Assembly (NCBI GenBank): GCA_029007725.1
Contig: JAQXIJ010000082.1
Coordinates: forward strand, 1-46,005
From: Bacillota bacterium
GTDB lineage: Bacteria; Bacillota; Clostridia; UBA1381
Direction of reading: 5' to 3'
Length of the DNA stretch: 46,005 nucleotides
Positions 1,937-41,294 of the stretch are shown here, in pieces; positions within the stretch are counted from its first letter, which is position 1, and the number at the start of each line of letters is the position of its first letter. The position numbers and the translations under genes are program-made. The notes under the pieces were generated by a model. That model was given only the letters and a program-made list of their open reading frames with translations. It made no database searches and was not told the origin of the DNA.

Positions 1937-1961
1937 AACCTTCACGCTCCCTATAAAAATT

Positions 1962-2696
1962 TTATATATATTTTTTCAGAATGATGTGGATTCTGTCGCT
2001 GCGAGTTTTGTTGCCGGAATGCAAAAACTGCATTCTGCCAAAGCCACGTATCGACAGCAAATCGTTCTCCATCACGGCGGCATCAATTTTTGGTTCTTCG
2101 GTATGATTCACCGAAACCTTTCCTGCCTCTATATATCCCCTTGCCTTTTTGCGGCTTATATTAAGCCCCGCGGCGATAACCGCATCCAACCGCAATGATG
2201 CCGCAACTGTTTCAATTATTTTAAACGTGCGTTCCGGCAGCTTTATGGATTTTATATCCGCAATCTCTGCTTTAACGCCGCAATTTGCAATTTTTGTAAT
2301 ACTTCTGCATACAAAGTCGGCAACATCATTGAATACAAACATATACGAAAACGGATTATCTACCAGAATATCACCGATACGATTTCGCTCTATGCCGAGT
2401 GAAAGTGCCGTTCCAAGAAAATCCCTGTGCGTTAATTCTCTTTCGTATTTTTTTGTAAACTTAATAACTTTTATCGGAAAGTCCGAAAAATCCATTTCAT
2501 ACCATTCGGGAAACACTCCCAAAACACACCGTTCTGCATCATCATAGCCGCCGAACAGCACACCATTTGCAAGTCCCTCATTGTTCAGCAGAATCTGCTC
2601 GTGCGAATTCAAAAAATGCGAAAACCTCGAACATGCATACTTGTCGCTAAGCTTATATATATCACCTATTTGTTTTATGAAAATATTATTGTCCAT
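1962..2696 (-). CDS. ylmH: S4-domain RNA-binding protein, YlmH family
   Basis: A protein of about 244 residues whose C-terminal third is an S4 RNA-binding domain (around SLRLDAVIAAGLNISRKKAR through GYIEAGKVSVNH). The N-terminal two thirds match the YlmH layout, with a segment reading GVLFGGYDDAERCVLGVFPE. YlmH proteins act in translation or ribosome quality control and sit beside sepF and divIVA. I chose ATG at 2696 because the protein then begins MDNNIFIKQIGDIYKLSDKY, the normal family start. An in-frame ATG at 2768 would add a hydrophobic 24-residue leader and overlaps the stop of a possible upstream micro-ORF (TGATG), so a longer form cannot be excluded. Confidence 0.88.
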   Translation of the reverse strand: MDNNIFIKQIGDIYKLSDKYACSRFSHFLNSHEQILLNNEGLANGVLFGGYDDAERCVLGVFPEWYEMDFSDFPIKVIKFTKKYERELTHRDFLGTALSLGIERNRIGDILVDNPFSYMFVFNDVADFVCRSITKIANCGVKAEIADIKSIKLPERTFKIIETVAASLRLDAVIAAGLNISRKKARGYIEAGKVSVNHTEEPKIDAAVMENDLLSIRGFGRMQFLHSGNKTRSDRIHIILKKYI

Positions 2697-37111: not shown

Positions 37112-38059
37112 ATGCATTTTTTATTGGTAACGGTATTATTCATTATCGGTCTTGTCCTGATAATCAAGGGCAGCGACTTTTTCGTCGACGCGGCGGCATG
37201 GTTTGCAGAAATTTCCGGCATACCCAAATTCATTGTCGGCGCGACGGTCGTAAGCTTTGCCACGACTCTGCCGGAGCTTTTGGTATCTCTTTTTGCATCG
37301 CTTCAGGGCAAAAATCTTATGGCTGCCGGAAATGCGGTCGGTTCGGTCACGGCTAATATAGGGCTTATCATGGCCATATCAATTGTCTGTATTCCGGCGG
37401 TGGTCAAGCGAAACGAGCTTGCATTCAAAGGCATTCTGATGGCAATCTGCTGTGCATTGCTTCTGGTGTTTGCCCGAACCGGAAACTTCGGGATTTTACC
37501 GAGTGTTGTAATGCTGTTCATATTCGCGGTGTTCATGACAGAAAACATAGCAGCGGCAAAAAAATCAATAACCGAAACAGAAACTGTTTCATCAACAAAG
37601 AAGGAAAAGCTCGAAAACCTTATAAAATTCATCATAGGTACAGCCGGAATAATTGTCGGCGCACAGCTGCTTGTTGATAATGGCACGGAAATAGCACGTA
37701 TGCTCGGTGTTTCTGATGGAATAATAGCAGTAACTCTGATTGCCGTCGGCACTTCGCTTCCAGAGCTTGTGACAACGATAACCGCAATAATCAAAAAGCA
37801 GTCATCACTCTCAATCGGCAACATAATCGGCGCAAACATAATTGACCTTTCGGTAATTCTTCCGGTATGCTCGTTGGTGGCAAAAGGAAACACGCCGATT
37901 GCACTCCAAACATATGCTCTTGACATTCCGGTCTGTCTTGCTATAATACTGATAGCGATTGTTCCGCCGCTAATAACAAAAAAATTCAGCCGTATCCAGG
38001 GAGTTGTTCTTCTCGTCTCCTATGCGACATATATAGTATACGTTTGTGCGGCGATGTAA
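37112..38059 (+). CDS. Ca2+/Na+ antiporter (CaCA family)
   Basis: A 315-residue membrane exchanger with about ten helices in two inverted halves. The first alpha repeat is GATVVSFATTLPELLVSLFA with GNAVGSVTANIG; the second is AVGTSLPELVTTITAI with SIGNIIGANIIDLSVI. The acidic ion-binding Glu is present in both (LPEL). A hydrophilic loop (about 148-170, SITETETVSSTKKEKLENL) separates the halves. It probably exports Ca2+ or another divalent ion in exchange for Na+ or H+. It is followed 17 bp later by a DJ-1 gene, likely in the same transcript. Confidence 0.93.
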   Translation: MHFLLVTVLFIIGLVLIIKGSDFFVDAAAWFAEISGIPKFIVGATVVSFATTLPELLVSLFASLQGKNLMAAGNAVGSVTANIGLIMAISIVCIPAVVKRNELAFKGILMAICCALLLVFARTGNFGILPSVVMLFIFAVFMTENIAAAKKSITETETVSSTKKEKLENLIKFIIGTAGIIVGAQLLVDNGTEIARMLGVSDGIIAVTLIAVGTSLPELVTTITAIIKKQSSLSIGNIIGANIIDLSVILPVCSLVAKGNTPIALQTYALDIPVCLAIILIAIVPPLITKKFSRIQGVVLLVSYATYIVYVCAAM

Positions 38060-38076: not shown

Positions 38077-38610
38077 ATGATTTATGTACTGTTGGCCGAT
38101 GGGTTTGAGGACATTGAGGCTCTCGAGCCTGTAGATATTCTGCGCAGAGCTGAAATTCCGGTAAAGACGGTTGGTGTTGAATCTAAAACCGTTGTTGCTT
38201 CACACAAGACCAGCGTCAATGCGGACATCACCATTGACGAAGTAGAGAAAGATGATATGACCATGCTCGTTCTTCCGGGAGGCATGGGGCACAAACATCT
38301 TGACGAATCGGAAAAAGTCGAAGAACTGATAAGCTATGCTGCAGGGAACGGAATATACATTGCCGCAATCTGTGCCGCGCCGTCAATTCTCGGCAAGCGT
38401 GGCCTGTTAAACGGGAAAAAATACACCTGCTTCCCCGGATATGAAAAACTGATAACCGGCGGCATTCATTCCGATGACAAAGCGGTTCTCGACGGCAAGT
38501 TTCTGACTGCAAAAGGTGCCGGCTCGGCAAGTGAATTCGGATTTAAAATGGTAGAAATTTTTAAGGGAAAACACATAGCTGACAAAATTAAATCCTCCAT
38601 GCAGTATTAA
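38077..38610 (+). CDS. DJ-1 family protein (glyoxalase III/deglycase type)
   Basis: A 177-residue DJ-1/PfpI protein. The N-terminal Glu lies in LLADGFEDIEALEPVDIL. The nucleophile elbow cysteine is in YIAAICAAPSILGKRGLL, preceded by LVLPGGMGH. A late block, AKGAGSASEFGFKMVEIF, is typical of the YajL/DJ-1 branch. Members protect against reactive carbonyls or act as redox chaperones. ATG at 38077 has AAGGAG eight bases upstream. Confidence 0.93.
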   Translation: MIYVLLADGFEDIEALEPVDILRRAEIPVKTVGVESKTVVASHKTSVNADITIDEVEKDDMTMLVLPGGMGHKHLDESEKVEELISYAAGNGIYIAAICAAPSILGKRGLLNGKKYTCFPGYEKLITGGIHSDDKAVLDGKFLTAKGAGSASEFGFKMVEIFKGKHIADKIKSSMQY

Positions 38611-38643: not shown

Positions 38644-38672
38644 TTGACATATGTCAAAAATACAAATATAAT
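38644..38672 (+). promoter_or_regulatory. Consensus promoter with palindromic -35 region
   Basis: TTGACA (38644-38649), 17-bp spacer, TATAAT (38667-38672), both exact. The -35 box forms one arm of a perfect 14-bp palindrome TTGACATATGTCAA (38644-38657), which may be an operator. Transcription would begin just before the riboswitch. Confidence 0.85.
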
Positions 38673-38678
38673 ATTACC

Positions 38679-38766
38679 GTAAAGGGGAGTAGTCTGCGCT
38701 ACAAGCGTTACTTCGGCGTCAATACGGCATTTTGCCCGCTGTTGTAGTAAAAGACAAGACTTTTAT
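38679..38766 (+). ncRNA. yybP-ykoY (Mn2+) riboswitch aptamer
   Basis: It carries the two invariant loops of this class: AAAGGGGAGUAG at 38681-38692 (L1), and GCGUCAAUAC (38716-38725) followed by a GGC-AUUUU-GCC hairpin and CGC (the L3 side). The 3' part GACAAGACUUUU closes helix P1 with the 5' UAAAG. The layout matches the L. lactis yybP RNA, where these loops hold Mn2+. An intrinsic terminator follows directly. Known members turn genes on with Mn2+. Confidence 0.85.
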
Positions 38767-38799
38767 TGTATTTTTTTAATGCAATAAAAGTCTTTTTTT
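38756..38799 (+). terminator. Regulated terminator of the yybP-ykoY riboswitch
   Basis: Perfect 13-bp stem AAGACTTTTATTG (38756-38768) / CAATAAAAGTCTT (38782-38794), then a T-run. Its 5' arm contains the P1 3' strand of the aptamer (GACTTTTA), so aptamer closure and terminator formation exclude each other: ligand present, read-through. Confidence 0.88.
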
Positions 38800-38836
38800 G
38801 TTCCCAAATAAATACATAGTAGGAGGAATTTTTAAA

Positions 38837-39958
38837 ATGGAGTTATTCTTTGAAAATCTTTATCAAATCCAATGGCAACACATTGTTATGTGGATAATAG
38901 GGGCGGTTTTGATTTATATTGCTGTCCGCAAGAACATGGAACCGTCACTGCTGCTGCCTATAGGCTTCGGCACCATTTTGGTGAACATTCCTTTTTCCGG
39001 GGCTGTGACTCAGACCATTAACGGGATTAAGGAAATCGGAATACTGGATGTTTTGTTCGACGCAGGAATTGCCAACGAGCTTTTCCCGCTGCTTTTGTTT
39101 ATAGGAATAGGCGCCATGATAGACTTTACACCGCTTTTGTCAAACCCGAAGCTTATGATATTCGGTGCGGCGGCACAGTTCGGAATTTTCTTTACTCTTT
39201 GCATTGCCTCATGGCTCGGATTTGATTTAAAAGATGCCGCATCAATCGCGGTTATCGGTGCGGCAGACGGCCCTACTTCTATTTTCGTTGCAAATTATTT
39301 TAACACAAAATACATTGGCGCAATAATCATAGTCGCATACTCATATATGGCGCTTGTTCCGATTATTCAGCCGTTTGTTATAAGGTTTTTAACCACAGAA
39401 AAGGAGCGTAAAATCCATATGCCTTACGCACAGAAAAACATATCAAAAACGGCGAAAATCATGTTCCCCATATTTATAACCGTAATATGCGGACTTATTT
39501 CTCCGCGCAGCATCGCTCTTATCGGGTTTTTGATGTTCGGTAACCTAATACGCGAATGCGGCGTGCTTGGCAGTCTTTCCGAAACCGCGCAGAAAGTACT
39601 TGCCAATCTCGTCACAATTTTTCTCGGTATAACAATAGCATCAAAAATGCAGGCTGCAACTTTTCTGACGGTTCAGACTCTTATGATTCTTCTTCTCGGT
39701 CTGGTTGCCTTCATATTTGACACTGCGGGCGGCGTTTGCATCGCAAAATTCATAAATATCTTCCTGAACAAAAAAATCAATCCGATGATAGGTGCAGCCG
39801 GAATATCGGCATTTCCTATGTCTGCAAGAACGGTGAATAAACTAGGACTCGAGGCGGACAACCAGAATTTTCTGCTTATGCACTCCGTTGCCGTAAATGT
39901 TTCGGGGCAAATTGCTTCAGTCGTTGCCGGCGGGCTTATACTAAAACTGTTCGGTTAA
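38837..39958 (+). CDS. Sodium-translocating decarboxylase beta subunit (OadB/GcdB/MmdB family), orphan
   Basis: A 373-residue membrane protein with about nine to eleven hydrophobic segments. Family hallmarks are AVRKNMEPSLLLPIGFGTIL, the IGAADGPTSIFVANYF block with the Asp that binds Na+, AYSYMALVPIIQP, GAAGISAFPMSARTV and the C-terminal HSVAVNVSGQIASVVAGGLI. In complete pumps this subunit couples decarboxylation on biotin to Na+ export. No carboxyltransferase or biotin-carrier gene is in reach; only a 45-residue partner follows. ATG at 38837 has AGGAGG ten bases upstream; an in-frame codon at 38798 lies in the terminator tail. A yybP-ykoY riboswitch controls it. Confidence 0.93.
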   Translation: MELFFENLYQIQWQHIVMWIIGAVLIYIAVRKNMEPSLLLPIGFGTILVNIPFSGAVTQTINGIKEIGILDVLFDAGIANELFPLLLFIGIGAMIDFTPLLSNPKLMIFGAAAQFGIFFTLCIASWLGFDLKDAASIAVIGAADGPTSIFVANYFNTKYIGAIIIVAYSYMALVPIIQPFVIRFLTTEKERKIHMPYAQKNISKTAKIMFPIFITVICGLISPRSIALIGFLMFGNLIRECGVLGSLSETAQKVLANLVTIFLGITIASKMQAATFLTVQTLMILLLGLVAFIFDTAGGVCIAKFINIFLNKKINPMIGAAGISAFPMSARTVNKLGLEADNQNFLLMHSVAVNVSGQIASVVAGGLILKLFG

Positions 39959-39973
39959 AGAGGAGGAAAAATT

Positions 39974-40111
39974 ATGTTTAATACAATTTCGCTTATGAAT
40001 GTGCTTCCAACAGCATTTGAAGGCTGGCTTCAGGTTTTTGCGGTCATACTTTTAATAATCGCTGCTACATATCTGCTTAACAAATTTACCTCGGATAAAG
40101 GCGATAAATAG
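39974..40111 (+). CDS. 45-residue one-helix protein downstream of oadB (OadG-like position)
   Basis: A small frame with AGGAGG eight to nine bases before the ATG and 15 bp after oadB. It starts MFNTISLMNVLPTAFEGWLQ, has one membrane helix (VFAVILLIIAATYLLNKF, residues about 21-38) and ends in charged SDKGDK. Position and topology recall the gamma subunit (OadG) that anchors sodium-pump decarboxylases, but it is about half the usual size and lacks the soluble tail. It is followed by a terminator, so oadB and this gene form a two-gene unit. Confidence 0.7.
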   Translation: MFNTISLMNVLPTAFEGWLQVFAVILLIIAATYLLNKFTSDKGDK

Positions 40112-40120
40112 AATATATGA

Positions 40121-40169
40121 AAAAGCTCTGCAGTATACATATTTTTTGTATAATACAGAGCTTTTGTAT
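40121..40169. terminator. Bidirectional terminator between the oadB unit and rodA
   Basis: Perfect 10-bp stem AAAAGCTCTG (40121-40130) / CAGAGCTTTT (40156-40165) serving both convergent transcripts. Confidence 0.85.
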
Positions 40170-40175
40170 ATTTTT

Positions 40176-41294
40176 TCATCTCTTATATCCTATCCGCGTT
40201 CCGCGCGAATGCCGCGTGACCGAAAGAACAATTCCGACAGCGGTCATATTAGTAATCAACGAAGTTCCTCCGTAACTTATGAAGGGCAGCGGAATACCTG
40301 TTACCGGCATAAGACCGATGCACATTCCGGCATTTTCAAAGGTATGAAAAATAAGCATAGAGGCAATTCCGACGCACAGATATTTTCCCATAGAGTCGTT
40401 TGCCTCCTGCGCCGCCTTTATACAGCGTGCAATTATAAGAAGCAGCAGAAGTATTACCAAAATAGAGCCGATGAATCCGAATTCCTCAGATATAACACTG
40501 AATATAAAATCGGTATGCTTTGTCGGTAAAAATCCCATTTGGTTCTGCGTTCCCTTTAGGTAACCCTTACCAAAAATCTGTCCCGATCCAACTGCAATTT
40601 TTGACTGAATAACATTGTAGCCACTGCCAAGCTTGTCCATTTCGGGATTGAAAAACACCTGTATCCTGTGCTTTTGATAGTCACTCAGCAGAAAAAAATA
40701 TGCCAGCGGTGCCGAAGCCAAAATAACAGCCGCCGCAGGAATGATATATTTAAATGATAATCCAGCCACAAACAGCATTGCGGCAAACATAAAGCAAAAT
40801 ACCATTGCACTTCCGGCATCTGGTTGCATCATTATCAATCCCAGCAGAATACCAACATGCAAAAAAAGCATTATAACCGTCGAAAGCTTGTTGATTTTAT
40901 TTTTCACACAAGATAAATGGTACGAAAAAGTTATAGCAAAGCCGACCTTGCATATTTCAGAGGGCTGGATACCGATAGGCCCAAATCTTATCCAGCTTCG
41001 TGCGCCCCAACTTCCGGCAGAGCCTATAACAAGCACTGCAGCAAGCAGCAAGATGCATACAACATAAATCGGTATCGATATATACCCGAACAACTGATAG
41101 TCAATACGGCTTACAATAAGCATAACCGCAATTCCGATTAAAAATGCACCCGACTGCACAATAACATTTGTGTATGTATTTAAAGATCTTGTTGCGCTGT
41201 ATATTGCAACTATTCCAAAAACAGCGGTTATAACCGTAACCCAAAACAGCAGCCTGTCAAATCCGGTTTCCCTGGCTTTTTCTTTTTTTCTCAA
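40176..41294 (-). CDS. rodA: Rod-shape SEDS glycosyltransferase RodA
   Basis: A 372-residue SEDS peptidoglycan polymerase with about ten helices. The family segments are SWGARSWIRFGPIGIQPSEI, MMQPDAGSAMVF, KGYLKGTQNQMGFLPTKHTD, DFIFSVISEEFGFIGS and GMCIGLMPVTGIPLPFISYG, the last being the SEDS signature. ENAGMCIGLMPVTGIPLP favours RodA over FtsW or SpoVE. The start is TTG at 41294 with GAGGG about five bases upstream. It has its own promoter and is not next to mreBCD here. Confidence 0.93.
   Translation of the reverse strand: MRKKEKARETGFDRLLFWVTVITAVFGIVAIYSATRSLNTYTNVIVQSGAFLIGIAVMLIVSRIDYQLFGYISIPIYVVCILLLAAVLVIGSAGSWGARSWIRFGPIGIQPSEICKVGFAITFSYHLSCVKNKINKLSTVIMLFLHVGILLGLIMMQPDAGSAMVFCFMFAAMLFVAGLSFKYIIPAAAVILASAPLAYFFLLSDYQKHRIQVFFNPEMDKLGSGYNVIQSKIAVGSGQIFGKGYLKGTQNQMGFLPTKHTDFIFSVISEEFGFIGSILVILLLLLIIARCIKAAQEANDSMGKYLCVGIASMLIFHTFENAGMCIGLMPVTGIPLPFISYGGTSLITNMTAVGIVLSVTRHSRGTRIGYKR

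Follow-up and report, generated by a model that had tools for sequence, protein, structure and literature searches.

The riboswitches of the yybP-ykoY class (RF00080) share an L1 loop with the block GGGAGUAG, an L3 loop with an invariant adenosine and target genes for cation exporters. In the L. lactis and X. oryzae RNAs the N7 of this adenosine is described as contacting Mn2+, and in the L. lactis yoaB switch, where the 3' strand of the switch helix P1.1 is at the same time the 5' arm of a terminator, this segment is reported to be taken by the terminator when ligand is absent (PMC6754395, PMC11087558). The L. lactis aptamer is built on a four-way junction, and a three-way junction has been described for S. 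pneumoniae mgtA (PMC9495176). One review labels Mn2+ switches as OFF switches (PMC11477304), a label at odds both with what is described for L. lactis and with the expression platform analysed here. For the protein encoded downstream, the closest described system is the Salmonella oxaloacetate decarboxylase, where roles have been assigned to beta-subunit residues (Na+ site, decarboxylation-critical glutamate) and removal of the gamma tail was reported to reduce alpha binding severely (PMC7274780). In the open PMC literature we found no paper tying OadB to a Mn2+ riboswitch, and the gene-context tables of the founding 2015 papers might contain one.

The locus studied here lies in a 46,005-nucleotide stretch of DNA from a Bacillota bacterium (contig JAQXIJ010000082.1), referred to as the window. 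All features of the leader are on the plus strand. It is preceded by a sigma-A type promoter (TTGACA-17-TATAAT, 38644-38672) with 12/12 matches to the consensus and a spacer of 17, and since this perfect promoter ends at 38672, transcription is expected to start around the first aptamer base, at about 38679. The -35 hexamer sits inside a perfect palindrome, TTGACATATGTCAA (38644-38657), a possible operator, which by eye is absent from the relatives L009 and L010.

The initial annotation had noticed that a terminator arm and the strand closing an aptamer overlap, and the letters on which this was based, UAAAG at 38680-38684 and GACUUUUA at 38758-38765, were found as claimed. P1.1 is formed by UAAAGG (38680-38685) and CUUUUA (38760-38765), six pairs with one G-U among them. 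CUUUUA also belongs to the 5' arm of an intrinsic terminator (38756-38799), whose stem (38756-38794) has 17 pairs and a loop of 5 and is followed by a U-tract (38793-38799). Because the same six nucleotides are needed by both helices, P1.1 and the terminator cannot coexist, as had been proposed; the arm itself, given as 38756-38768, proved longer in the terminator scan.

Between the strands of P1.1 and P1.2, and overlapping both, lies the conserved L1 block GGGGAGUAG (38684-38692), which contains GGGAGUAG and corresponds to the A-minor loop described for the class (PMC6754395); its positions 38684-38685 are common to P1.1 and 38692 is common to P1.2. The latter pairs GUCU (38692-38695) with AGAC (38752-38755) and, like P1.1, covaries among relatives. 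L1 is flanked by these two stacked helices, of which P1.1 is the switch helix. Constrained folding placed the 3' strand of P1.2, a P2 hairpin (38696-38708) and P3 (38709-38746), the last with an internal loop L3, UCAAUAC (38719-38725). A38721 in this loop is the equivalent of the Mn2+-sensing adenosine in the L. lactis sequence UCA41AUUC as reported in PMC6754395. The window fold has three helices meeting in a three-way junction and lacks P4, unlike the four-way junction of L. lactis yoaB; the absence of P4 was not treated as defining because of the three-way junction described for S. pneumoniae mgtA. Downstream of the terminator, a ribosome-binding site (AGGAGG, 38821-38826) was recognized by eye ahead of oadB2.

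When both states were folded, as the initial annotation had suggested, the unconstrained minimum of the full-length RNA, which has the terminator, was predicted at -40.9 kcal/mol versus -26.6 kcal/mol with P1.1 and P1.2 forced. The 3' strand of P1.1 was in the terminator with a probability of 0.998 once the RNA reached 38792, and in shorter transcripts (ends at 38766-38784) the probabilities were 0.13-0.21 for P1.1 and 0.30-0.65 for P1.2. P1.1 is thus weak in silico even before the terminator is complete, and the aptamer would therefore need ligand or kinetics to win. The 141-nt leader had a z-score of -5.29 relative to shuffled sequences, mostly due to the terminator; the microRNA-type families that the terminator hairpin matched in Rfam scored far below gathering and were dismissed. 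The proposal that ligand gives read-through gains support from the mutual exclusion of P1.1 and terminator and from the same architecture published for L. lactis yybP-ykoY (PMC11087558, PMC6754395).

Relatives of the leader were collected by a pattern search, which found the element in 7/70 family genomes and in none on the reversed control. Fourteen leaders, 9 of them preceding OadB2 and the others preceding other genes, were aligned (A1) and used to build a covariance model, R1, which matched 50/95 genomes of the order (53 elements) and 150/391 genomes of the class. The window leader itself had no Rfam match at gathering, and RF00080 did not match it even at E 10. Its best match, and the sole plausible family up to E 10, was SSRC10 (RF02617), which may be the Streptococcus mgtA leader, with 26.9 bits where gathering is 56; the mgtA target is described as a Mn2+/Ca2+ ATPase. 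The Na+ riboswitch DUF1646, a different RNA, was absent from the matches up to E 10 and was excluded. Elsewhere in the window, an azaaromatic (yjdF) riboswitch (RF01764, 16983-17080, minus strand) scored 71.7 bits, with gathering at 45.

The relation to RF00080 became visible when the two models were compared over many genomes. RF00080 gave 13 matches at E≤0.001 in 12/148 class genomes, with 0/148 above gathering, and all 13 loci were matched at E≤0.0026 by R1, which had been built without them. In the reverse direction RF00080 matched 2/15 R1 loci, L125 and the OadB2 leader L159 (the latter with E 0.0084), both below gathering, and none of 20 further loci reached gathering. The E. coli K-12 mntP locus, which carries a well-studied Mn2+ riboswitch, also scored below RF00080 gathering. 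As the class genomes and E. coli mntP fail this score alike, the cut-off, which is set by the library and is no property of the RNA, reflects a limit of the model and was not used as a test. When R1 was run on E. coli mntP, nothing it matched was credible (best E 1.6), and it therefore covers just a part of the riboswitch class. The lineage found here thus scores below or outside RF00080 and differs from it further in having oadB2 as a target; it shares the L1 block, the L3 adenosine, the cation-exporter targets and the switch-helix arrangement. These observations support the assignment of the window leader as a putative transcriptional ON riboswitch of the yybP-ykoY class, with Mn2+ as its probable ligand.

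The 53 order sequences were aligned to R1 (A2), an alignment which consequently leans to the R1 pairs. Standard pairs made up 95.7% of pair cells, compared with a shuffled value of 84.1% and no more than 50.7% after sliding, and two-sided changes occurred at 10/12 modelled pairs (69 such cells versus 19.4 in shuffles). RNAalifold recovered P1.1/P1.2 alone from A2, with no P2 or P3, and the P2 and P3 of the window therefore rest on constrained folding and comparison by eye. GGGAGUAG (A2 columns 9-16, within L1) was invariant in 53/53 sequences, the block being part of R1 and biasing matches towards itself, and the adenosine equivalent to A38721 was present in 51/53, the other two having gaps.

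Conservation of the overlap was determined in 133 elements, namely all 53 order matches and the 80 best-scoring of the listed class matches outside the order. By the rule that a hairpin with a U-tract must take at least 4 of the 6 P1.1 nucleotides into its 5' arm, an overlapping terminator was present in 130/133 elements (52/53 in the order and 78/80 in the best-scoring class set; the misses were L125, L177 and L235). At 31 loci the P1.1 3' strand deviated from xUUUUx, mostly with accompanying changes in the terminator 3' arm and the P1.1 5' strand. Compensation of all three strands was complete at several loci, among them L218 (CAUGAG/CUCAUG/CAUGAG), L222 (UAUGAG/CUCAUA/UAUGAG) and L198 (UGAAGG/CCUUCA/UGAAGG). 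The co-changes at the 31 variant loci are the strongest evidence that both partners of the switch strand matter. At L048 two R1 elements (1545-1656 and 1955-2066, minus strand) lie in tandem ahead of one gene, presumably of the UPF0016 family.

The genes behind the switch were classified with six protein queries representing four families, and genes without a match were counted as none. Over the 133 elements the first gene encoded a P-type ATPase in 46 cases, a CaCA antiporter in 46, OadB in 32 and MntP in 4, with 5 in none of these, i.e. 128/133 belonged to the four families; the share of OadB is inflated by the R1 seed and the score ordering. The corresponding numbers were 20 CaCA, 19 P-type ATPase, 11 OadB and 3 MntP for the order (n=53), and 27 P-type ATPase, 26 CaCA, 21 OadB, 1 MntP and 5 none for the best-scoring class elements (n=80). 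Behind the 13 elements found with RF00080 there were 7 P-type ATPases, 3 MntP, 1 CaCA, 2 unmatched genes and no OadB. OadB2 was also found as the second gene in switch-mntP-oadB2 (L132) and switch-CaCA-oadB2 (L166) operons; in a further operon (L292) it follows a putative Na/Pi-transporter-like gene. Directly 5' of the window switch there are two plus-strand genes, one for a CaCA Na+/Ca2+ antiporter (37112-38059) and one of the DJ-1 family (38077-38610); at other loci CaCA genes are among the chief targets of this kind of switch.

What is new at this locus is the target gene oadB2, which the initial annotation had not named; the switch mechanism is known in kind. The gene (38837-39958, plus strand; TIGR01109 414.9 bits, PF03977 497.9 bits) encodes an OadB-like sodium-pump beta subunit of 373 aa. 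Its predicted structure (pLDDT 87.1) is closest to 6iww_A, the Salmonella OAD beta-gamma complex, with a TM score of 0.87. In 61 relatives, short fragments excluded, proteins with at least 60% identity to the window protein were defined as OadB2 (29 listed) and compared with 60 listed ordinary OadB, which form one clade with a support of 100. A switch was present less than 1 kb upstream of 11/29 OadB2 versus 0/60 ordinary OadB; in genome G075 the gene fragment carrying the gene start was used for this count. On the tree the switch label would have to change 30 times among OadB2, gains and losses being indistinguishable, with 9 changes forced by well-supported branches and a mean of about 48 after shuffling. 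MntP was present in 51/61 relatives, including the window genome, and the idea that OadB2 simply replaces MntP was dismissed.

A scan of named genomes yielded at least 80 OadB2-like loci, with Neobittarella massiliensis, Marasmitruncus massiliensis, [Clostridium] symbiosum ATCC 14940 and Pseudoflavonifractor capillosus among the cultured hosts; in N. massiliensis and P. capillosus oadB2 carries the leader. Over these loci R1 gave 33 matches at E≤0.1 (29 of them at E≤0.001), of which 32 were upstream on the same strand and one (L309) on the opposite strand; 31 of the 32 lay 36-418 nt 5' of the matched gene start. As 32 of the 80 loci listed carry such an upstream switch, OadB2 must live outside the regulon too. 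The match in Clostridium tunisiense (L269, 2501-4134) exceeds the rest in length by about 500 bases and looks as though an insert had split it.

The surroundings of OadB2 differ from those of a decarboxylase. An alpha gene (PF02436) lay within 6 kb of 0/29 OadB2 versus 55/60 ordinary OadB. OadB2 is followed in the window by oadG2 (39974-40111, plus strand), an ORF for a 45-aa single-helix mini-gamma without the alpha-binding C-terminal tail, and then by the probable terminator of the two-gene operon (40120-40176, plus strand; inverted repeat and T-run recognized by eye). Under a permissive rule, a short hydrophobic ORF was found behind OadB2 at 99/113 loci, a few of these ORFs being unrelated (for example at L317, L322 and L336). 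The window OadG2 had no PF04277 match, and 4/7 peptides of this kind weakly matched the membrane part of this OAD gamma family (E 0.0076-0.091). Five weak OadG matches adjoining OadB2, in frames of 47-60 aa, stopped by position 55 of the 76 in the model; most OadB2 partners have 40-50 aa. The ordinary gammas of the same genomes, detected by the Pfam genome search, are longer and match the whole model; a motif search for them in 20 loci gave a single irrelevant ORF.

The strongest alternative is that OadB2 is a Mn2+-inducible beta isoform which borrows the single alpha of the genome to form a decarboxylase Na+ pump of the ordinary kind. Such an arrangement would be in line with the alpha gene present in 59/61 relatives, with the ordinary OadB found in addition to OadB2 in 27/29 genomes, and with the equivalents of E40, D203, S382 and N412, which include the residues of the Na+ site and the glutamate critical for decarboxylation, retained in 128/128 OadB2 rows (some being the same gene from two collections). 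However, the missing alpha neighbour and the loss of the gamma tail that recruits alpha in Salmonella (as reported in PMC7274780) suggest that the OadB2-OadG2 pair is probably not a decarboxylase. The equivalent of R304 is gone from most OadB2, and two residues are invariant in OadB2, E81 and Q358, where 19/19 ordinary OadB have Gly and Val, respectively. We consider the isoform unlikely, albeit worth keeping in mind.

Less probable still, and in our view a rather remote reading, is that the same RNA fold senses Na+ or Ca2+. It is raised by the targets, which comprise Na+-pump relatives, Na+/Ca2+-type antiporters and Ca2+-type ATPases, by the oxaloacetate decarboxylase genes that White et al. 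report behind the Na+ (DUF1646) riboswitch (PMC9337991), and by the S. pneumoniae mgtA aptamer, described as folding with Ca2+ or Mn2+ (PMC9495176). Against it speak the lack of any DUF1646 match to the window leader up to E 10, the conservation of L1, L3 and the Mn2+-contacting adenosine, and the manganese exporter family MntP, which occurs both as a target and within the L132 operon. The Mn2+ class assigned by the initial annotation agrees with the reciprocal RF00080 matches, the conserved core nucleotides and the set of target genes. A plain terminator or fixed attenuator with a chance likeness to an aptamer might be suspected from the weak P1.1 and the dominance of the terminator in silico, but is highly improbable given the covariation with three-way compensation, the element's presence in 50/95 order genomes and its near-exclusive cation-transporter targets.

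A Mn2+-class ON switch controlling an operon for an alpha-less OadB2-OadG2 cation transporter is, in our judgement, likely. On this model the nascent leader would fold P2, P3 and P1.2 into a compact three-helix form that lacks P4, and metal bound between L1 (GGGGAGUAG) and L3 (UCA, A38721) would lock P1.1 (38680-38685/38760-38765). With P1.1 held, the terminator (38756-38799) would be blocked and the polymerase would read into oadB2-oadG2; without ligand the terminator, more stable by 14 kcal/mol, would capture the switch strand and stop transcription. The operon would encode a beta and a gamma subunit of the decarboxylase Na+-pump family, with neither the carboxyltransferase alpha nor the alpha-binding gamma tail, and since both are missing, OadB2-OadG2 is probably a stand-alone cation transporter in the homeostasis of a metal, most likely manganese. 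OadB2 is a candidate for addition to the manganese-efflux regulon, perhaps as an exporter. More tentatively, the pair may be an alpha-independent exporter of Mn2+ (or exchanger of Mn2+ and Na+) and would then join P-type ATPases, CaCA antiporters and MntP as the fourth major family in the manganese-riboswitch regulon of the Clostridia type. Such an exporter could have arisen from the decarboxylase Na+ pump by loss of the enzyme subunit, trimming of gamma and gain of the invariant Glu81 and Gln358, the latter located one helical turn from the Na+-site residue Asn354.

The switch appears to behave as a textbook Mn2+ riboswitch, yet it reveals a lineage largely missed by the Rfam model. Its recurring pairing with OadB2 in many gut and sediment bacteria suggests that the orphan subunit helps against excess metal ions. 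If OadB2 moves Mn2+, many gut bacteria would possess a new family of metal exporters that carries the annotation of a decarboxylase subunit; should it move Na+ instead, sodium gradients would be tied to metal stress. Under either reading the function of this common orphan gene is directly testable.
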